In this document: positions 1-19,671 of the stretch, one piece after another
How positions within the stretch are numbered: the first letter of the stretch is position 1
How the letters are laid out: every line of letters starts with the position of its first letter
Source: Bacteroidaceae bacterium
GTDB taxonomy: Bacteria > Bacteroidota > Bacteroidia > Bacteroidales > Bacteroidaceae
Reading direction: 5' to 3'
NCBI GenBank assembly: GCA_017633615.1
Contig: JAGBPB010000016.1
Coordinates: 1-21,966, forward strand
Length of the DNA stretch: 21,966 nucleotides
Position numbers and translations under genes: made by a program
Notes under the pieces: model-generated
What the model saw: the letters and a program-made list of their open reading frames with translations, nothing else
Told to the model about the DNA's origin: nothing
Database searches by the model: none

Positions 1-3000
1 AGTCATTGTTGTCTACCATGGCGGTTATGGTGCCCAAATGGTCAGTTATGGCAGCTGCGGAGTGTGTCACGGTACCGCCCTGTGTAGAGCTTACGGTATG
101 CAGTCCTGCCAGGCCGTCAGCACCGTTCACGTAGTAGAAGCTGGTTGTAACACCATCAGTGGTCTTCTCCTCATAGTCACCCCACTGGAACTTCTCATAC
201 TCTATGTGGTAGGTCTTGTCATACCTGCTGCTCACCTTCTCAAGGTCAGGACCATATTCCGCAGTGTAGTAGTAGAAGTCTGTCTGATCATAGTGCCAGA
301 TGGTACTGACCTTGCCCCACAGGTTGTAGGTGATCTCATGCCCGTACAGCGTGAGCGTCTGCTCATCATTGTCTATGGACTGCACGGCATGGGGCTTTGA
401 GAAGCTGCTGTAGGTGTAATCGCCCAAGTCTGTCTTGTAGGAAATGTTGCCGTTGGCGGCATAGACCATCTCCATGATCTCCTCATTGTTCTCCTGGACG
501 GCAGTGAGGCGGTCCAGGTTGTCATAGACAAAGTTCCAGGTCTCACCGTCAGACATACGGTTGTTGGCCGATGTCAGGTTACCCGTCATGGGAGAGAAGT
601 TGTAGTCCTCATCCTGATAAACCCAGTCATCATGTTGTACTGTTCTTATGGAGTCCAGATATCCGTACTGGTCAAGAAGGTGTGTCTTAACAAACGGATA
701 AGAGGTGTTGTTGTCAAGAACTGTCTCTGACACCGTGCGGCGGCCTGTATATCCTGTTAGGTTCCACTTGACGGCACCGCCCGCACCGTTAACGCCTGTC
801 AGGTTACCGTAGGCATCATATGTGTAGGTGAACACCTTACTGCCGGGCTGCGTGCTGGTAACGAGCAGTCCATTTGAGTCATACGTGTATGACTTGCTTC
901 TTGATATCACGCCTGTCTTAAACATAGTCTCATCAGTGACACGGCCATAAGCATCATAAGTGTAGGTCTTGGTCCATCCGTTCAGGCTCTCACTCACAAG
1001 ACGCATCTGCCCCGTACCATCCGTGTTGCTGTTGCCGTAGGTGTAGGAGATGGTCTCTGAACTGCCGGACTGGGATGCCGTGACGTTGGACACACGGCCA
1101 AGGTAGTCATAATTTGTGGAAAAAACAACTCCGCGTGCGTCAGTCCTGCTAGTTTCGCGGCCAAAAGCATCATAAATATATGTCGTGGTGCCCGCATCCG
1201 GGTCCGTGATGGATGTGCGGTTGCCGCGGTCATCATACTGGAAGGTCCAGGTGGCGTTGTTGGTCGTTGCCTGCAATATACCGCCGTTGGAAGAAAAGGT
1301 GTTCTCTATGCTGCTTGAAGCAGGTCCTTCAACTTTGAAAAGGTTACCCATCGCGTCATACCTGTAGGTAGTGGTACGGTTTGTGTTTCCATCTTCGGTG
1401 ACTGTTACAATACGAATGCTTCCATTAGATAGATAGCCGTATGTCTTCCTCCTGCCACCTGGATATATCTCATTCATAACTCTACCACGCACATCATATT
1501 TCTTTCTGCTGGTGAGTGACAGGCCTCCGTTAACATCCGTGCTGCTTACCGTCAGCTCATGGTTGCTGTAGCTGTATGTTGTGGTACTGCTGACGCTGAC
1601 GTTCTTTGGCCCTATGCTCTCCATGAGCACTTCACGTCCCTGGTTGTCATACCATGTCTTGACCCATGGGCGGCCTGTACCCTGCTCCAGCACAAACCAC
1701 CGCTGAGAGGCATCGCTTCCCCAGCCGCGGGTGTAGGTCACCTCACCATCACCAGCCTTCTGGGTGCAGGTTATGTTACCCCAACCGTCATAAGTATTGG
1801 TAACGGTATTGTTTATTGAAGTGTTTATGCTGTCCTGCTCCGTCAGCACGTTACCCCAGGTATCATAGGTATATTTGCGTACTGATGAGGCTGGGCTTGT
1901 GTATATCCTTACCGGGAAACGGTGTGTGGCATCATAGCTGTAGTAAGTGGTGCAAGGGGTCGTATTACCGGAAAATGTACTCAACTCACTTGTAAGGTTG
2001 CCCCACGAGTCATAAGAATAACTGGTGGTCAACGGAGCGGTTGTTCCGTAGTTGTCAACTTTTGTGGAAACTGTGCCTGTGGTGCTGTTGTAGGTGTAAT
2101 TGGTTGTGACGCTGAATGGAGATGTGTCGTTGGGATGACGTTGGCTGGTTACCACCGTCTGCGGGCGATATACGCCCCCCACTTTGGTATCGGTATATTG
2201 CCGGTATCTTACTGCACGGTACATATTGGTTCCATAGACCGTGCTGTCAGACAAGACGTAACCCTTTACCGTATCGCAGGTGTGGTATGTTGACGTAGTG
2301 AAACCGTCCATATCAGTCTCAACTGTCTGTGACGGATATGCAAAGTATATCTTACGGTTGGAACTGTTATATGTGTCACTGATGCTGAGGGTGATGGTGG
2401 CTTGTGACACATCACTGCCAATGGTAGTCCTGGAGTATGTAATCTTGGGTATATAATGCGCAGTGTCCCACTGGGTAACACCGCTCTCTGTGGTAACACC
2501 TGTGGTGGTGTTGGTTGTAATAGTCTTGCTGAACCCCAGCAGTCCGCGGCCGCGCAGGTGGGCCTTGAGGCCCTCATAATTATACTGTGTTGTCATACTG
2601 CCGGCCACACCGTTGCTTTGAGTAGTCTGCTTGACTACGTTGAGAGGTATGGTGTATCTTGGAGCAGGATAGGATTCATCAGTACCGCGCGTGTATATAT
2701 TCTGATCAGCAAGAGTGGAGTACGTTATATTGGTGGTGGCACCAAAATCACCGCTGACAGAAGTGACCTTGCCGCTTTGTGCAGTGAGGCTGCTGTTCTT
2801 GTATATGCGCCATACGGGATCTGAGTTTGCATTGACACCGTGGGCGCAGTCATAGCCGTAGTTTACCAGTTCCATGCGGCCGTCACCGTCAAAATCACCT
2901 GTCAGATACCTGTTACTCAAGGCATCATCTGCTCTGCTTGAAGAAGCATGGTGGACTTGAACAAGTGCTGTCCCTGTAGAGTGTAGCCAATAGGTGTCAG

Positions 3001-5959
3001 TTGAAATAAAAACTCCAGTTCCTGATATATGTTTTGTCTCAGTTAAAACAACATCCGATTTACCATCACCGTCAAAATCAAGTATTTCACAATGACAATT
3101 ATTACTATTATAGCTAGTATGGATCTGATCTAGTGAACTTGGGCCACGTGATAATGTTTTTGAGAAAGAACCGTCTCCATTATTGATGTAAAAATACCAT
3201 TGGTACAATGGCTCCTTTGTCAGAACGTCAAGCAAGCCATCTCCATTAAAATCTCCTGGAGTTAAGCAATAGGAATCCTTTAATAATGTTCCAGTGTTAT
3301 TGCCAGAGTTAAGAAATGTGTTATTGTTCATGCCTCCACCATGATTCCAAATAATGGCGTAGCTGTCTTCACATACTACAAATAAATCTACTAGACCGTC
3401 ACCATTCATATCACTCGCATAAAGATGTTTGGGATCTGAATCAAATGTCAGGTCCTGTGTTGCACAACCTACTAACGGACTATTGTAGTTCGGTCCGTAA
3501 TTATTATCGTAACGCGCTACGCAGAGATTGTATACGTCGTATTTCTTTTCTGTTTCAAGATAAACTATTTCACTCCTGCCGTCATTGTCAAAATCACCGG
3601 TAGCGCAAAGAGGTTTGGAGATGGTTTGCAGAGGAAATAGTTTATATTTATGGTCAAAATCAGGCCCCACAACATTGAAAATGATTCTTGCATAATCCCC
3701 GGTAGCATAGTCGTAGAAAGGAACTATCATCTCATTGGTCCCATCTCCATCTATATCCACATTCATGTTAGCTGCGATTTCTGTCATGATTAAAGAGCCT
3801 AGCGAACCTAAATATTCCATGGTATAATGCTGGTTAGAATTGGAGAAAGTAACATTTCCGTTCTGATCCAGTGATGCATAGGCTCCATCAACAATTGTGT
3901 AAGGGTAACCATTATTGACATCTATCGGAATAATTTCTATCAAGTCATCAAGACCGTCGCTGTTCAGGTCTCCAGAAAAAACTGTCATGGTTTGGAAAGG
4001 AACATCTTCTTCAAGAAGCAGGCTGGTTGATGGACTGATAGAGGGGGAATATGAATTGAATGAGACGGCCGGCAGGAAAGACCAATTAAGCTGAGTGGCA
4101 GGCAGAGTTTGGTTCTGAGCGTTCTTTTCAGTAACGCTCACAAGACGTGAGAACTTGTAGGAGGTGCCGTCATTCATGCTGTAGTTAAGGTCATATGAGC
4201 GGAATGTGTTTGCGTTTGTCTTTCCCGTTATGTTGGTAAGACGCCTCTGCATACTCCCTTTCTGTCCGTCAAATCTGATGAGTATGGAGTCCGGGCGGGA
4301 ATCATAAGTGAACTCCACTACATTGGAGAGTGAGTTTGTATGATTAACATTGTTGCCATATGTTATCTGATAAGGATACACACAATTGTTGTTTTGCTGG
4401 TAGCTGTATATCATGTAGTTGCCTGTGGGTTGCTGGGCACGGCACAGATACCATGAGTGTGTCCTTCGGTTGCTATTCACGGTGTATGAAAGGCGAGAAT
4501 TGTAGTCGGAGTTTGAATACGGGTCATGACCGTACCAGTATGTCATGCCGTTGCTACCTTGAACCTCATACCATGTATTATCGGCGCTATTGTAACAAAT
4601 TCCATGTGTAATTACAACGGTGAAAGGGTCAGATTCAGGATTATATGTAGCGCCGTCACGGCCTGCCGTACCGGATCTGAGTATCAGGCGTACGCCGTCC
4701 AGATAGAGTGCGTCATCGGCAAGGTATTTCATGCCTTGTGCCGTTCCGTCATGGAAGATATCCTTGGGGCCGCGTGTTATGGATGACATTCCAGAAAGGC
4801 TGGCCCCGTATCCGCACAATCCGTTACCCGCCTGACTATTGTATGTTATGGCCAGCTGCGGCTGCAGGCCGTCCACGCCCTGCGGTACAGCTATGGGTAT
4901 GCTATACGTAGCTCCACCCATGGGCGATACGCCGAAAAATCCGCCCATGGCACCTACTGCCGTGCCTGGCTCAGCGCTGTACGTGGAGGGTATGACGGGG
5001 TAGTCGTATCCGGCCTCTGTATTGGCGATAATGTTTGTGGTGATGATTCCGTTTGCTGTCTTTCCTTCTGACACCACATAGTATGTGCCGGGAGAGAGCT
5101 GACGGTTGATGAACGCCTGGCATGTATCGGAGCAATGTCCGCCGCCTGAGTAGTTGTCATTGCTTTCAATAACAGAACCGGATGAGTTGAGCAGATAAAG
5201 AAAAGTATCCTGTAAGGATGAGCCTTGATGGGTTATGGTGACGTTCATTTCTGTAGACAGAGTGAATGTGTAATAGACGTCATTTGTGGCTTGACCCATG
5301 CGGTTGCTGAAGGTATGGGTATCTTGGGTGTTGCTATATGAGAATGAACCGGAATACGTTCCTGCCACAATAGGTAGAGTGCGGCTGTCACCCGTGGGCA
5401 CCTCATCAAATGTCATGTTGGTGGTGATGTAGCCGTCATATGTCTTGCCTTCACTTACTACGAAATAGAATCCGGCTGGCAGAACCATGCGTATATATGA
5501 TTGCGTGGTATAGTAACAGTGACCATCACCACTGTAATCATCATTCTCTGCTATCAGTTGTATGGAACTGCCAAGCAGGTGCATATAGGTGTCATAAACG
5601 TTTGAGCCATCGTGGGTCAGTGTTACTATCATCTCTTTTGGCAACTGGAACACATAGTATACGTCTTTAGTGTTTTGGCCAACATATACATTTGAGTAGT
5701 CATTGGTATTTACTGTGTTGGTATAGGTCTGGTGGGTGGCCGATGAGGGGATGGACGTGACCAGGATGGGGTCACCTATGGTATTGCCCGTAGGGTATGA
5801 ACGGACAGGAGGGATAGTGTCCTTGATAGTGTCACAACATACAGAATCTCCCGGCTGAATAATTTTGATGCTGTCCTGCCTTATATTTCCTGTCTGTGCG
5901 GAAAGGGAGAATACTATACAGATGAGGAAAAATAAGATAGATAAGGGTTTTGTTTTCAT
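1..5959 (-). CDS. SpvB/TcB-like RHS-repeat exported protein, C-terminus cut by window edge
   Basis: Reading the minus strand from the ATG at 5959, I find no stop to base 1 (1986 codons), so the 3' end lies outside. Residues 1-21 are a signal peptide (MKTKPLSILFFLICIVFSLSA). Residues about 85-290 hold two tandem copies of a PPC-like beta-sandwich unit (motifs ENDDYSGDGHC and SNDNYSGGGHC). Residues about 345-385 match the SpvB/TcaC N-terminal signature (ATYSIPIAVPQGVDGLQP, then YNSQAGNGLCGYG). Residues about 660-1035 carry seven DxDxDG-type motifs (for example DFDGDGKSDVV), as in FG-GAP/VCBS propellers. RGRGLLGF near 1133 resembles the TcB middle domain. At least a dozen YD repeats follow (YDSWGN, YDAYGNLTG). 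The last residues, DHLGTITAMVD, normally precede the RHS core. The layout resembles the B component of Tc toxins, where RHS repeats build a shell around a C-terminal cargo. Whether this one carries a toxin, an adhesin or a sorting domain cannot be seen. It is probably the last gene of a three-gene operon. Confidence 0.93.
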   Translation of the reverse strand, partial: MKTKPLSILFFLICIVFSLSAQTGNIRQDSIKIIQPGDSVCCDTIKDTIPPVRSYPTGNTIGDPILVTSIPSSATHQTYTNTVNTNDYSNVYVGQNTKDVYYVFQLPKEMIVTLTHDGSNVYDTYMHLLGSSIQLIAENDDYSGDGHCYYTTQSYIRMVLPAGFYFVVSEGKTYDGYITTNMTFDEVPTGDSRTLPIVAGTYSGSFSYSNTQDTHTFSNRMGQATNDVYYTFTLSTEMNVTITHQGSSLQDTFLYLLNSSGSVIESNDNYSGGGHCSDTCQAFINRQLSPGTYYVVSEGKTANGIITTNIIANTEAGYDYPVIPSTYSAEPGTAVGAMGGFFGVSPMGGATYSIPIAVPQGVDGLQPQLAITYNSQAGNGLCGYGASLSGMSSITRGPKDIFHDGTAQGMKYLADDALYLDGVRLILRSGTAGRDGATYNPESDPFTVVITHGICYNSADNTWYEVQGSNGMTYWYGHDPYSNSDYNSRLSYTVNSNRRTHSWYLCRAQQPTGNYMIYSYQQNNNCVYPYQITYGNNVNHTNSLSNVVEFTYDSRPDSILIRFDGQKGSMQRRLTNITGKTNANTFRSYDLNYSMNDGTSYKFSRLVSVTEKNAQNQTLPATQLNWSFLPAVSFNSYSPSISPSTSLLLEEDVPFQTMTVFSGDLNSDGLDDLIEIIPIDVNNGYPYTIVDGAYASLDQNGNVTFSNSNQHYTMEYLGSLGSLIMTEIAANMNVDIDGDGTNEMIVPFYDYATGDYARIIFNVVGPDFDHKYKLFPLQTISKPLCATGDFDNDGRSEIVYLETEKKYDVYNLCVARYDNNYGPNYNSPLVGCATQDLTFDSDPKHLYASDMNGDGLVDLFVVCEDSYAIIWNHGGGMNNNTFLNSGNNTGTLLKDSYCLTPGDFNGDGLLDVLTKEPLYQWYFYINNGDGSFSKTLSRGPSSLDQIHTSYNSNNCHCEILDFDGDGKSDVVLTETKHISGTGVFISTDTYWLHSTGTALVQVHHASSSRADDALSNRYLTGDFDGDGRMELVNYGYDCAHGVNANSDPVWRIYKNSSLTAQSGKVTSVSGDFGATTNITYSTLADQNIYTRGTDESYPAPRYTIPLNVVKQTTQSNGVAGSMTTQYNYEGLKAHLRGRGLLGFSKTITTNTTTGVTTESGVTQWDTAHYIPKITYSRTTIGSDVSQATITLSISDTYNSSNRKIYFAYPSQTVETDMDGFTTSTYHTCDTVKGYVLSDSTVYGTNMYRAVRYRQYTDTKVGGVYRPQTVVTSQRHPNDTSPFSVTTNYTYNSTTGTVSTKVDNYGTTAPLTTSYSYDSWGNLTSELSTFSGNTTPCTTYYSYDATHRFPVRIYTSPASSVRKYTYDTWGNVLTEQDSINTSINNTVTNTYDGWGNITCTQKAGDGEVTYTRGWGSDASQRWFVLEQGTGRPWVKTWYDNQGREVLMESIGPKNVSVSSTTTYSYSNHELTVSSTDVNGGLSLTSRKKYDVRGRVMNEIYPGGRRKTYGYLSNGSIRIVTVTEDGNTNRTTTYRYDAMGNLFKVEGPASSSIENTFSSNGGILQATTNNATWTFQYDDRGNRTSITDPDAGTTTYIYDAFGRETSRTDARGVVFSTNYDYLGRVSNVTASQSGSSETISYTYGNSNTDGTGQMRLVSESLNGWTKTYTYDAYGRVTDETMFKTGVISRSKSYTYDSNGLLVTSTQPGSKVFTYTYDAYGNLTGVNGAGGAVKWNLTGYTGRRTVSETVLDNNTSYPFVKTHLLDQYGYLDSIRTVQHDDWVYQDEDYNFSPMTGNLTSANNRMSDGETWNFVYDNLDRLTAVQENNEEIMEMVYAANGNISYKTDLGDYTYSSFSKPHAVQSIDNDEQTLTLYGHEITYNLWGKVSTIWHYDQTDFYYYTAEYGPDLEKVSSRYDKTYHIEYEKFQWGDYEEKTTDGVTTSFYYVNGADGLAGLHTVSSTQGGTVTHSAAAITDHLGTITAMVDNND

Positions 5960-5978
5960 ATGTATAGGTGTATAGGCA

Positions 5979-6422
5979 TTAGTTCTTGATTATTTTCCAA
6001 ACACTGTTCTTGCCGTTTATGCGTATCACAAACAGGTATGTGGCATCAGGATAGTCTGTGATGTCAATCTCATTTACTGCGCTGAGCCTGTCCTTGTGAT
6101 ACAACAGGATTCCGTTCATGGAGTATATGCCCATGGATGAACCGTCAAAAGAGTCTGTCCCCGTTATCTCTATCTTGAGGTCACCCTGGGTGGGATTGGG
6201 GTAGATTGTGATCCTGGAAAACGATAATGAATCCTGATATGTACGTTGTTCTGATGAATCTCCGTCTGATTGACGGTTGAAAATGATTTCACGTTGTGTT
6301 ATCGTCCTGTTGCCGGCTGCATCATACGTGTACAGCACACGGTCGGCATGAACATATAATGTTGGTACAAATAAAAACAAAGAGATAATGATTGGTCGCA
6401 AAGACCGGTCCTTCTTTTTCAT
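5979..6422 (-). CDS. Small exported protein with one YD repeat and T9SS type A sorting domain
   Basis: This 147-residue protein has an N-terminal signal peptide (about residues 1-27, hydrophobic PIIISLFLFVPTLYVHA). A single RHS/YD repeat follows (VLYTYDAAGNRTITQREI), then a linker. The C-terminal domain of about 75 residues has the hallmarks of T9SS type A sorting domains: ITIYPNPTQGDLKIEI, a central MGIYSMNGILLYH strand pair, and a final YLFVIRINGKNSVWKIIKN. T9SS domains of this kind direct export through the outer membrane and are usually removed or anchored at the surface. It sits 19 bp upstream of the giant RHS gene and 30 bp downstream of the DUF3244 gene on the same strand, so co-transcription is likely. 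The lone YD motif beside a large YD-repeat protein suggests a partner or capping role, which is inference only. It could instead be the remnant of a longer RHS gene, but it has an intact signal peptide and sorting domain. Confidence 0.88.
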   Translation of the reverse strand: MKKKDRSLRPIIISLFLFVPTLYVHADRVLYTYDAAGNRTITQREIIFNRQSDGDSSEQRTYQDSLSFSRITIYPNPTQGDLKIEITGTDSFDGSSMGIYSMNGILLYHKDRLSAVNEIDITDYPDATYLFVIRINGKNSVWKIIKN

Positions 6423-15906: not shown

Positions 15907-16521
15907 ATGACATTCAGCCAGGAAAGTTTTGAGATTTTTGATCGTGCCATTGCCGATTATCACAAGAAAGACAATGTGGATACTCCTGTTTCTAATCCGT
16001 ACAAGGAGAAGAGTATTGAGTTCTATCTTTATCTCAAGAACTGGATTGACACAGTCCAATGGCATCTGGAGGATATTATCCGTGACCCCAACATAGATCC
16101 TGTCAAGGCTCTGGCAATAAAACGCCGTATTGACCGCTCAAACCAGGACCGCACGGATATTGTGGAACTGATAGACAGTTATTTTCTGGATAAGTTCAGT
16201 AATGTGAGCGTCAGGACAGATGCCACAATCAATACTGAGAGTCCTGCGTGGGCTGTTGACAGACTGTCAATTTTGGCTCTCAAGATATTCCACATGAAGA
16301 TAGAGGCTGAACGTACAGATGCTCCATCCGGTCAGCAGGAACTTTGCCGCCGTAAGCTGGAAGTGCTTATGGAGCAGAAAAAAGACCTGTCCGGTGCAAT
16401 TGACATGCTGCTTGACGATATGGCTGCAGGACGCAAGTTCATGAAGGTGTACAAGCAGATGAAGATGTACAACGATCCTACTCTCAACCCTGTTCTTTAC
16501 GGACAGAATGGCTCAAAATAA
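15907..16521 (+). CDS. DUF4254 domain protein
   Basis: This 204-residue, mostly helical cytoplasmic-looking protein has no signal peptide or membrane helix. Its pattern matches the Bacteroidetes DUF4254 family: NPYKEKSIEFYLYLKNWIDT, QWHLEDIIRDPNIDP, KRRIDRSNQDRTDIVELID, and a C-terminal DDMAAGRKFMKVYKQMKMYN. The family has no established function. The gene overlaps the start of the GT9 gene by 14 bp, and in Bacteroidetes DUF4254 and a family 9 glycosyltransferase often sit together. A role in cell-surface glycan (lipopolysaccharide) assembly is therefore reasonable but inferred from neighbourhood only. Confidence 0.85.
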   Translation: MTFSQESFEIFDRAIADYHKKDNVDTPVSNPYKEKSIEFYLYLKNWIDTVQWHLEDIIRDPNIDPVKALAIKRRIDRSNQDRTDIVELIDSYFLDKFSNVSVRTDATINTESPAWAVDRLSILALKIFHMKIEAERTDAPSGQQELCRRKLEVLMEQKKDLSGAIDMLLDDMAAGRKFMKVYKQMKMYNDPTLNPVLYGQNGSK

Positions 16522-17584
16522 GACTCCCCGGAACGTACTCCTGATCCGCTTCTCTGCAATAGGAGATGTGGCCATGACTGTGCCTGTTATCCAATCAGTT
16601 GCCCAGTCATATCCCTATATACATTTTACTGTACTTTCAAATGCGCGGTTTGCTCCTTTCTTTGAGCATATGCCCGGGAATGTGAGCTTTTGGGGAGTTG
16701 ATCTTAAGAAGGATTATCATGGTTTCGGGGCCATGTTCAAGCTTTTCCGTCAGCTCCGTAAGAGGCATTTTGATGCCGTGGCTGACCTTCACGGTGTGTT
16801 GCGCACCACTGCTCTCTCCATTTTCTACAGGCTCTGTTTTGTAAAAGTACGTAGGATAGAAAAAGACCGCCGTTCACGCAAACGCATTACCCGCCAGAAA
16901 AACAAGGATCTCACTCCCCGTCTCACTTCATTTGACCGTTACCGTATAGTTCTGGAAAAACTTGGTTTCAGGTTTGAGATGAGGTTCCGTTCCATATTCG
17001 GTGAAGGAAAGGCTGATTTGTCTGCTGTGAGGAATGTTGTCGGTGAGAAGGACTGTATATGGGTCGGTATTGCTCCGTTTGCCGCTCACAAGGGTAAGAT
17101 TTATCCTCTTTATCTGATGGAGGAGGTGGTTTCACAGATAGATAGTGCCTGTCTGTGCCGTCAGTTTGTGTTTGCCTACGGTAAGGAACGTTCACTTGTT
17201 GAAGAATGGGCTGAGAAATACCGTTCAGTAGAGATTATCGATCCCCGTCTGGGAATTGGAGGTGAACTTGTCCTGATAAGTAATATGGAGGTGATGGTTG
17301 CCATGGATTCTTCAAATATGCATCTGGCATCAATCACCGCAACTCCTGTCGTTTCAGTCTGGGGTGCCACTCATCCTGCGGCAGGGTTCATGGGATGGGG
17401 ACAGAATCCCGATGATTGCATCCAACTGGACCTTCCGTGCCGTCCGTGCTCCATCTACGGAAAGAAAGAGTGCATGTACGGTGATTACCGCTGTCTTACC
17501 GGCATCAATCCCGATGCCGTGTTCGCTAAAGTCAAGATGCAATTGGGGACTGTCCCCTTTTGCACATGCGATAGTAAGCGATAA
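16508..17584 (+). CDS. Glycosyltransferase family 9 (ADP-heptose:LPS heptosyltransferase-like)
   Basis: This 358-residue protein has the GT-B layout of heptosyltransferases. The N-terminal domain opens with NVLLIRFSAIGDVAMTVPVI and contains FDAVADLHGVLRTTAL. The C-terminal, nucleotide-sugar-binding domain contains WVGIAPFAAHKGKIYPL and the family signature AMDSSNMHLASITATPVVSV followed by WGATHP. It should transfer a sugar, probably heptose-like, to the lipid A core on the cytoplasmic side. The acceptor is not known. It is coupled by a 14-bp overlap to DUF4254. Its last residues, MQLGTVPFCTCDSKR, are encoded by the left arm of the inverted repeat at 17536-17630 and are unlike the usual end of this family, so the C-terminus appears to have been replaced by the repeat. 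Confidence 0.92.
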   Translation: MAQNKTPRNVLLIRFSAIGDVAMTVPVIQSVAQSYPYIHFTVLSNARFAPFFEHMPGNVSFWGVDLKKDYHGFGAMFKLFRQLRKRHFDAVADLHGVLRTTALSIFYRLCFVKVRRIEKDRRSRKRITRQKNKDLTPRLTSFDRYRIVLEKLGFRFEMRFRSIFGEGKADLSAVRNVVGEKDCIWVGIAPFAAHKGKIYPLYLMEEVVSQIDSACLCRQFVFAYGKERSLVEEWAEKYRSVEIIDPRLGIGGELVLISNMEVMVAMDSSNMHLASITATPVVSVWGATHPAAGFMGWGQNPDDCIQLDLPCRPCSIYGKKECMYGDYRCLTGINPDAVFAKVKMQLGTVPFCTCDSKR

Positions 17585-17630
17585 TAGTTAAATAATACAC
17601 GTGCAAAAGGGGACAGTCCCCAATTGCATC
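17536..17630. repeat. 30-bp perfect inverted repeat forming both 3' gene ends (REP/MITE-like element)
   Basis: The arms 17536-17565 and 17601-17630 are perfectly complementary over 30 bp, around a 35-nt AT-rich loop. Each arm contains its own palindrome, GGGGAC-T-GTCCCC. The left arm is read by the GT9 gene and the right arm by the WbqC gene, both in the frame giving MQLGTVPFCTC; both stop codons (17582-17584 and 17588-17590) are in the loop. As RNA it could fold into a long hairpin and stop transcription from either side, although there is no T-run next to the stem. The nested palindrome suggests a REP-type or miniature mobile element. No transposase or target-site duplication is seen here. 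Confidence 0.85.
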
Positions 17631-18220
17631 GGGAACTCCGGGCCCATGTTGAAGAGGAGATCTACGGCGCTCAGGTTGGGTAGGAAACCGTATTTTTGTT
17701 TAAAAACCTGCCAGTAGGGTTGGGGGGATTCAGGTTCTCCGATACCCGGTTCTGCTAGAGCACGCAAATCCAGCATATCATCTGTTTTGCGCGTATATGA
17801 TTCCGTCAGTTTAAACTGTTTATTGATTCCTGCAAGTTCCATTATGCGCAGCGTAAGTTCTGTATTGAAATCCAGCAGGAACTCATATTTTTTCTCATAG
17901 AAGGGGCGGAAATCATCCTGGTAGTACATGAAGAAGGGGCTGTTCATGTAGGCTGATTCCAGTGAGTTCCAATGTTGGTGGCGCCACTCCCCGTGGTCAC
18001 TTATGCGTACATCCTTCATAAGCTGTTTAGGGGAATCTGTCTTTACCACGGGTATTGTCAGAGTCTGTACTCCGCCTGCTGTGGCTATCCTGCAGCGGTT
18101 CCGATAGGTCTGCTTACAGTAGTTGTCATACTGTTCAATAAGAACATCACCGCCACTGTTGATGGCGGTGAAGAAACTTACGGGTGGCAGGTATGCCGAT
18201 GTGAGCAGGACGGTTTGCAT
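17588..18220 (-). CDS. WbqC family protein
   Basis: Starting at the ATG at 18220, which overlaps the lepB stop (TGATG), the protein has 210 residues. A longer same-frame start at 18283 lies within lepB and is unlikely. It matches the WbqC-like family: VLLTSAYLPPVSFFTAI, EQYDNYCKQTYRNRCRI, SDHGEWRHQHWNSLESAY, MNSPFFMYYQDDFRPFYEKK and KYGFLPNLSAVDLLFNMGPE. WbqC-like proteins are linked to surface polysaccharide genes, but the reaction here is not known. Relatives usually end a few residues after NMGPE. Here the end is PMQLGTVPFCTCII, encoded by the right arm of the inverted repeat, so the natural C-terminus was probably replaced. It is the last gene of the dapB-lepB-wbqC run. Confidence 0.9.
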   Translation of the reverse strand: MQTVLLTSAYLPPVSFFTAINSGGDVLIEQYDNYCKQTYRNRCRIATAGGVQTLTIPVVKTDSPKQLMKDVRISDHGEWRHQHWNSLESAYMNSPFFMYYQDDFRPFYEKKYEFLLDFNTELTLRIMELAGINKQFKLTESYTRKTDDMLDLRALAEPGIGEPESPQPYWQVFKQKYGFLPNLSAVDLLFNMGPEFPMQLGTVPFCTCII

Positions 18221-19671
18221 CAGTTGTAACTCTTGACTGAACGGAACAGACGGTTCCAGCGTATCTTGCCCTTCTGCCCCCAATTCTTGTCTTTGTCAAG
18301 TGAAAGCCATATGAATACCGGACGGCCTACTATGTGATCCTCGGGAACATAACCCCAGAACCTTGAGTCAGCGCTGTTCTGGCGGTTGTCACCCATCATC
18401 CAGTAGTAATCCATCTTGAAAGTGTAGCTTGTGGCCGGTTCACCGTTTATGAGAATGGTTCCGTCACGGTCTACCTTGAGGTCATTGTCCTCATACACTT
18501 TTATGATTCTCTCATAGAAAGGCAGATTCTCAAGGTCAATCTGCACTGATGAACCTTTGGCTGGAATCCATATGGGGCCGTAGTCATCAACTGTCCATTT
18601 TGTATTCTTGTTCTGGGGGAACAACCATTCTGATTCAGCTGCAGAACAGGTGTACGGCTCTATGTCCGATACTATCCCGGTCTGGCTTGCCAATAGTTCC
18701 TTTGCCTTTAGGGTAAGCGGCATCAGGTGCTTTCCGGCCCTGTTTTCCTGTGACGGAAGATCTTCAAGACTAAGATGCAACTGTTTTCTTAATGATTCAG
18801 GAATGGGACGCAGCAAAGTAACTATGTAGTTGGTCTGTGCTGCTTCCGGCTGTTTGGCAGCAACGCCGTCTATATAAACGATGCCCCCCTTTATTTCTAG
18901 GGTTTGGCCGGGCAGGCCTACGCAACGCTTCACATAGTTTTCACGGCGGTCAACAGGACGGGCCATAATCTTGCCGAACTTGGACTCATTCTGTACAATA
19001 TACTTGCGCCCTACGCTGTAATAGAAATCGTACACACGGCGCTGTTCCATTGTGGAGAGGCTGTCCAATTCTATCTCTTTACAAAGGCTTTTGCCCAGCG
19101 GATAAACTATCATTCCGTAGTAATCGGCGCTGGTGTAGTTGGAATTGGTTACAATGGTATCGCCTGCAGGATAATTGAACACTACAATCTCATCCTGCTT
19201 TATCTTGCTGAATCCCTTGATACGTTCATACGGCCATTGCGGCTTGTCAAAATAACTCTTGGCTCCACCCGGGAACTGGTTCTGGGTGAGGGGCATAGTG
19301 AGGGGTGTCATAGGTTTACGCGGACCGTAAGCTATCTTACTCACGTAAAGGTGGTCACCCACAAGCAGTGATTTTTCAAGTGAAGATGAGGGTATGGCGT
19401 AGTTCTGGAACAGATAGATATTGACAAAATAGACCGCTATAAGAGCAAAGACAATGGCATCAATGCTATCCATTATCTGATAAAGGGTCTTGTTCTTTAT
19501 CTTTTTCCACCAGTCCCATTTGATTACCCTTGTGGTAAAGGCGTCAAAAACGAACGGTATTAGCAGTATACCCATCCAGCTCCTTACCCAAATCAGAAAA
19601 AGAATATAAAGGGCGGTATAAACAGCGCCCTTTATCCATTGTTTTTTTGTTATCTCCTTGATCTGCCTCAT
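18220..19671 (-). CDS. lepB: Signal peptidase I, long Bacteroidetes form
   Basis: The 483-residue protein has two N-terminal membrane segments (about residues 14-40 and 68-90), followed by the periplasmic catalytic domain. The nucleophile is Ser97 in IPSSSLEKSLLVGD, and the general base is Lys248 in YVKRCVGLPGQTLEI. The C-terminal signature YYWMMGDNRQNSADSRFWGYV is present. It removes signal peptides from exported proteins at the outer face of the inner membrane. It is longer than the E. coli enzyme because of an insertion between the catalytic residues and KIRWNRLF, as is usual in Bacteroidetes. It lies 15 bp after dapB and its stop overlaps the wbqC-like start. Confidence 0.96.
   Translation of the reverse strand: MRQIKEITKKQWIKGAVYTALYILFLIWVRSWMGILLIPFVFDAFTTRVIKWDWWKKIKNKTLYQIMDSIDAIVFALIAVYFVNIYLFQNYAIPSSSLEKSLLVGDHLYVSKIAYGPRKPMTPLTMPLTQNQFPGGAKSYFDKPQWPYERIKGFSKIKQDEIVVFNYPAGDTIVTNSNYTSADYYGMIVYPLGKSLCKEIELDSLSTMEQRRVYDFYYSVGRKYIVQNESKFGKIMARPVDRRENYVKRCVGLPGQTLEIKGGIVYIDGVAAKQPEAAQTNYIVTLLRPIPESLRKQLHLSLEDLPSQENRAGKHLMPLTLKAKELLASQTGIVSDIEPYTCSAAESEWLFPQNKNTKWTVDDYGPIWIPAKGSSVQIDLENLPFYERIIKVYEDNDLKVDRDGTILINGEPATSYTFKMDYYWMMGDNRQNSADSRFWGYVPEDHIVGRPVFIWLSLDKDKNWGQKGKIRWNRLFRSVKSYN

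Follow-up and report, generated by a model that had tools for sequence, protein, structure and literature searches.

The persistence of REP and TIR elements in genomes is generally put down to harmless landing near gene ends. As far as the accessible parts of one comparative account describe them, the closest known systems include the TIR repeats that accompany TIRYT transposases and are known with them as TIRtrons (Di Nocera et al., 2013), which carry a GGGGWSAS motif and form moderately abundant families, the GTAG-REPs, whose ends supply a TAG and which also occur inside ORFs, and the Rickettsia palindromic elements (RPEs), which are translated in frame within genes, carry a CGTC tag and have no known dedicated transposase (PMC3733652). 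The accessible part of a second account distinguishes two relevant groups of the associated enzymes: TnpA-REP subclass 2.6 (RAYT group 5), found in Bacteroidetes with atypical flanking hairpins, NH(L/I/V)H, WQ and YIH(Q/N)NP signatures and a median length of 179 aa, and subclass 2.1 (group 1), whose long proteins have NHVH, W(E/Q) or FQ, YIELNP or Y(I/V)HLNP and a C-terminal HTH, and which is reported there without REP-like flanks (PMC6006769).

Here we describe a locus in a 21,966-nt stretch of Bacteroidaceae DNA (contig JAGBPB010000016.1; this whole stretch is called the window below), where a GT9 glycosyltransferase gene and a WbqC-like gene converge on an inverted repeat. It is very likely, in our judgement, that this repeat is a REPIN-like dimer of HuH-transposase-type palindromic units inserted at the dyad where the two genes meet. 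The relevant features are as follows.

16508..17584, plus strand: GT9 glycosyltransferase gene (PF01075), with MQLGTVPFCTC codons at 17537-17569, then DSKR and the stop
17536..17568, plus strand: left repeat arm, a unit of REP/TIR type, with nested palindrome GGGGACTGTCCCC at 17545-17557
17569..17597, no strand: loop between the arms, with both stop codons inside
17588..18220, minus strand: WbqC-like gene (PF08889), with MQLGTVPFCTC codons at 17597-17629, then II and the stop
17598..17630, minus strand: right arm of the inverted repeat, with nested palindrome GGGGACAGTCCCC at 17609-17621
17528..17850, no strand: tract identical to a related locus (L001) at 322 of 323 positions, with flanks 72-81% identical

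The WbqC reading frame spans 17588-18283 on the minus strand, with its likely start at 18220. Each arm is 33 nt long, the two are 97% complementary across a spacing of 29 nt, and their outer 30 nt are perfect, which confirms the inverted repeat that a first-pass annotation had placed across the 3' ends of both genes. That annotation also had both proteins ending in the same repeat-encoded peptide: the common tail and the stops in the loop were borne out, but the proteins do not finish on those 11 residues, as GT9 runs on for four (...KVK-MQLGTVPFCTC-DSKR) and WbqC for two (...EFP-MQLGTVPFCTC-II). In a structure model of GT9 (28 sequences, mean pLDDT 74.2) the last helix ends at residue 346, the tail starts at about residue 344, and residues 353-358 have pLDDT under 50. 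The proposed bidirectional hairpin stands as a folding prediction, with 17528-17638 folding as RNA at -64.3 kcal/mol (z -11.8; 0 of 200 shuffles equally low), but a scan for the terminator consensus (G+C stem, short loop, T-run) gave no match at the window junction. None of the Rfam matches reached threshold; eight were to microRNA-type families and one was to a plastid element, and all are taken as artefacts of the long hairpin. As to carriage by phages, one exact arm pattern had 0 matches in viral contigs. Elsewhere in the window, imperfect direct repeats of two families (D1 and D2) lie within 860-6422, and 5979-6422 encodes a small protein with a YDAAGNRT motif, presumably as in RHS-like proteins.

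The junction was compared with that of relatives. A WbqC match was found in 36 of the 37 genomes of the genus, and among the 30 loci compared for junction state nine were empty, nine held an insert, six had other arrangements and six had one gene end that was not found. At the empty junctions the GT9 and WbqC stops overlap by 4 nt, typically within TACCTTTAAAGGTA. The filled ones hold a window-type insert in G001, GGGGCACA...GGGACGGTTC units in five genomes (G004, G008, G012, G034, G035), a TACACAGTAGGGACGGTTCC unit in G016 and a GTGTCACATTGGGGACAG form in G013. Because nine of the 30 junctions are empty and nine hold inserts of several families, the window repeat is an insertion into the GT9/WbqC junction; about 20 nt of native junction are missing in the window, a loss that clean insertion does not account for. 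A longer GGGGTATCAGTATC element stands by itself in G003 and is nested in G008 and G016. At loci L003, L008 and L016 this junction has a second inverted-repeat element (GGGGTATC(A/G)GTATC...GATACCCCAAAAAGTTC), either by itself or inside the loop of a palindromic pair.

The protein termini were read from the best 120 rows of each protein search, the GT9 set comprising 134 rows (115 of the best 120 listed, together with the locus rows and the window; five rows of at most 335 residues were left out). Native C-termini are found in 115 of these 134, most rows ending ...KVK(K/A)YL or similar, while eight carry MQLGTVPFCTC, nine have other repeat-like tails and two are otherwise long (row P0008 was counted as long by pattern, though its C-terminus is native). 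Similarly, most of the best 120 WbqC rows end ...GPEFPLYL or similar, with (M/L)QLGTVPF tails in eight and other GTV- or GSDP-containing tails in 16. The tail is not common to the orthologues, and the idea that it represents shared native residues is ruled out by native C-termini that lack MQLGTVPFCTC.

The repeat is also dispersed, in support of the mobile element suggested in the first-pass annotation, and is not confined to the window site. A 22-nt arm pattern, allowed up to three mismatches, was searched in the 16 genomes behind the related loci with the reversed pattern as control; it matched in all 16, from two (G002) to 122 (G008) times each and 82 times in the best-matching genome (G001), and the control gave 0 in every one. 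A 20-nt core pattern is present in 23 of the 37 genomes of the genus, and the arms recur nearly identical at tens of unrelated sites. The window core GGGGACAG (17609-17616 on the plus strand, plus its mirror) fits GGGGWSAS, as does the GGGGTCAG of relatives; the window arms begin GATGCAATTGGGG, and the commonest tips elsewhere are TGATAC and TAGTAC. One copy at a different site in another genome (L186) resembles the window in the stretch between the cores (0 of 200 shuffles scored as high), and most of the 24 distinct loops compared are unlike the window's. A nested tail in WbqC row P0127, together with half-remnants beside full copies at L076, L079 and L124, suggests that insertion into older copies may also occur.

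The likeness to units moved by tyrosine transposases was likewise upheld, as sister palindromes flank Y1/HuH genes in the relatives. A Y1 transposase match occurs in 12 of the 16 genomes behind the related loci and in 23 of the 37 in the genus. Sixteen transposase loci were read, and the proteins of 14 have the NHVH...Y(I/V)HQNP signature and are about 263-289 aa long. Repeat cores belonging to either of two families lie on both sides of 11 of these 14 genes, on one side of one and on neither side of two, and at L059 one flanking core falls within the called ORF start. The signatures are NHVH, FQ and YIHQNP (not HLNP), WQ was not seen in them, and most of the proteins are about 265 aa long. 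Three proteins scored against profiles all reached the Pfam Y1_Tnp cut-off and gave 53-56 bits with NCBIfam REP_Tyr_transpos (NF047646), below its curated cut-off of 80 bits, and two of the three had a weak C-terminal HTH match (E 0.07-0.08). No transposase was found at the cut-off in G001, despite its 82 arm matches, and likewise none in G005, G007, G011, G022, G024 and G037, where core matches are present. The presence of both is weakly linked, with a transposase match in 16 of 23 genomes with the core versus 7 of 14 without it, and we infer the window element's tie to a transposase by way of the relatives' genomes.

The position of copies relative to genes was counted in a sample of sites chosen by pattern matches rather than by a genome-wide census, with gene ends from simple ORF calls. 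Sites with like flanks were counted once and orthologous sites in different genomes separately. The count excludes loci L001-L016, L047-L062 and L091-L120, as well as any core that lies 400 bases or less from the end of its locus. The resulting 157 distinct clusters (109 single, 42 double, four triple and two quadruple) lie between tandem genes in 80 cases, between convergent genes in 44, between divergent genes in 11, inside reading frames in 20 and at edges in two; convergent sites are only mildly over-represented (44 of 135, compared with 32 of 149 adjacent gene pairs in L001-L016). The commonest exact position is at the element tip: in 48 of the 170 gene ends facing a copy, the stop's last base lies exactly 8 nt before the core, while two lie at 7 nt, two at 9 nt and 55 at 12-18 nt. 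These tip stops are TGA (34) or TAG (14) and never TAA, which leads among stops farther from the core (52 of 97) and makes up 344 of 938 background stops (all frames of at least 150 aa in the fetched loci, overlaps counted). An A-rich flank accompanies 46 of the 48 gene ends at the tip. Since stop-bearing tips (51) and A-rich flanks (66) are also present on the 104 sides without a gene end, both belong to the element. It is possible that, because the tips carry TGA or TAG with A/T-rich flanks, insertion beside the T of a TAA would re-make a stop, in one phase and on either strand. The element belongs to an established class, the REP/TIR elements that lie at gene ends, but is a little-described, stop-codon-supplying Bacteroidales variant, and a literature search outside subscription papers and preprints found no description of such elements in Bacteroidales.

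Twenty-one facing ends have a negative offset, 19 of which run through the core and two of which stop within the tip. The 19 read-through ends use three frames (13 GDxP, four GTxP and two GLxP), the window's own frame, GTxP, being a rare one. The first-pass annotation had instead cast the arm as an in-frame C-terminal cap, whose copies should sit at gene 3' ends in one frame; this was not supported, as three frames are used in read-through and more gene ends fall exactly on the tip stop than on any other single position. Specific in-frame copies include three tandem units (EDAIGDSPLLH) at L073:1328-3022 (G001:C23), inside a 564-aa open frame that looks like an M56/BlaR1-type sensor, and similar frames in L018, L019, L161 and L176 also carry units near the same place. 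Further in-frame units, QKGSDPNC or QKGTVPNC, occur at L157:4684 and 4882 and at L185:422, in a frame that is presumably sugar-nucleotide-transferase-like.

There are seven convergent sites at which the element is reached by both genes, and the phases are equal in all seven, although the number is small and six of them are tip stops, in the favoured stop phase. The equal-frame effect recurs with a different arm sequence at L016, where the tails read KYTVGTVPSV and EYTVGTVSSV. Such equality would arise because a symmetric element sits at a symmetric site, the dyad where the genes meet; convergent overlapping stops are symmetric sites of this sort, read alike from both sides. Specifically, the GT9 and WbqC frames would be mirror images about the dyad, a symmetric insert would be entered in the same phase from either side, and both genes would read on into the loop because the arm is stop-free in all frames. 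The matching tails are therefore best explained by insertion symmetry rather than shared function, and equal phase may be a matter of geometry, without need for selection on the peptide. In the mechanism that we propose, a Y1/HuH transposase of RAYT/TIRYT type would move the units as single-stranded hairpins, a loss of no more than about three native end residues would account for tolerance of the insert, the hairpin may influence how both transcripts end at their 3' side, and the window allele would have moved between species by homologous recombination.

That MQLGTVPFCTC instead serves both proteins as a functional cap, its frame kept by selection, is highly improbable. Eight of the 134 GT9 rows, which do not group together on the tree, have the same tail followed by similar loop residues (DSKR or ESKR), and the other tails at this junction are mostly GTVP or GSDP too, but the tail is absent from 115 of the 134 GT9 rows, the final six GT9 residues are modelled at low confidence, and the similar loop residues fit the spread of one allele, as the 322/323 tract supports. 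The three read-through frames at other copies also argue against it, and a cap with a universal frame is ruled out by these phase counts. Nor is an intrinsic bidirectional terminator, unrelated to the family and merely repeat-like, at all probable, even though the predicted hairpin is very stable (-64.3 kcal/mol) and at many single units elsewhere the stem is preceded by an A-run and followed by a T-run (A-rich flanks at 46 of 48 tip-stop gene ends and on 66 of 104 sides without a gene end): near-identical arms at tens of unrelated sites, copies flanking transposase genes, the 20 of 157 clusters that simple ORF calls place inside reading frames, and the lack of a terminator-like match at the window junction all speak for an inserted repeat, to which a terminator role may be additional.

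The inserted allele has also, judging from the sequence comparison, probably spread by recombination, because the tract is identical to that of another species at 322 of 323 positions within flanks of 72-81% identity. The 323-bp tract covers the element plus the adjoining third or so of WbqC, with its left end within 8 nt of the element edge; outside it, identity to L001 is 81% in the GT9 3' half and the WbqC 5' half and 72% in a LepB stretch, and the other 15 loci are 68-76% identical over the part of WbqC that lies in the tract. A quick GT9 tree, on which the MQLGTVPFCTC tail needs at least five changes forced by well-supported branches, fits the spread of one allele. It is unlikely that the L001 tract is instead an assembly join of related species at the repeat. 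The relatives' genomes were assembled from metagenomes, repeats are a source of false joins, and GT9 row P0001 (98% identical to the window) and WbqC row P0124 (88%) both have 3,799 bases as their longest contig. However, the window is unlike L001 on both sides of the tract, identity runs out within WbqC, at 17851, with no repeat found close by, a join would require an already existing identical stretch, and two WbqC rows that match the window at 99% and 97% identity represent eight and 10 member sequences. We consider the join less likely than recombination. Rows P0001 and P0124 may sit on one mosaic contig, such that junction mosaics exist or are assembled.

Repeated occupation was also seen at another junction of G001, with a gene ending LQVDTK. 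Of 30 orthologous loci, 25 yielded this gene end. In 10 of the 25, a palindrome from one of several families lies at the stop or no more than 6 nt from it, and the stop is TGA or TAG in nine of these 10 versus two of the 15 others. A second orthologue set, that of the L129 gene, gave gene ends for 12 loci out of 30, which allowed few comparisons. We tentatively suggest, as a possibility short of even chances, that within this Bacteroidaceae group HuH-transposase palindromes act as exchangeable gene-end cassettes, with ends retaken by different families and elements recombining between species along with part of a neighbour gene. If so, the same gene ends are occupied repeatedly (10 of 25 LQVDTK-gene ends and nine of 30 GT9/WbqC junctions). 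How such landing can be harmless is visible here, in stop-carrying tips and in the many copies that sit exactly at a gene's stop, and close species with the junction empty, differently filled or recently shared make element gain, replacement and transfer testable.

Set against the known systems, as far as the accessible parts of the cited accounts describe them, these elements share features with several. Like TIRtrons, they comprise palindromic or inverted GGGGWSAS units on both sides of a Y1/HuH gene and dispersed copies that are often dimers, but here there are tens to more than 100 pattern matches per genome in many relatives, and the GGGACGGTTC sister family deviates from the GGGGWSAS motif (PMC3733652). 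Like GTAG-REPs and REPINs with a RAYT, they lie downstream of genes, between convergent or tandem genes and in inverted pairs, with stop-supplying tips and copies inside ORFs (PMC3733652, PMC3116915), and the REPIN architecture of two inverted units and a spacer is present in the window. Stop-supplying ends and in-ORF copies are accordingly known in kind, because GTAG-REPs do likewise (PMC3733652); unlike those described, the hairpin foot here lacks GTAG, and the tips are TGA or TAG at both ends, with an A-rich flank. In-frame translation of palindromic repeats within genes is shared with RPEs, but the arm ends lack CGTC and most copies here lie at gene ends (PMC3733652). The transposases resemble subclass 2.6 in their occurrence in Bacteroidetes, atypical flanking hairpins, NHVH and YIHQNP, but WQ was not seen and the proteins are mostly about 265 aa rather than a median of 179; they resemble subclass 2.1 in NHVH, FQ, length and, by weak matches in two of three proteins, a C-terminal HTH-like region, but have YIHQNP and are flanked by repeat cores (PMC6006769). 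By their sequence signatures, the transposases of these relatives appear as a mix of subclasses 2.1 and 2.6 as there defined (PMC6006769).
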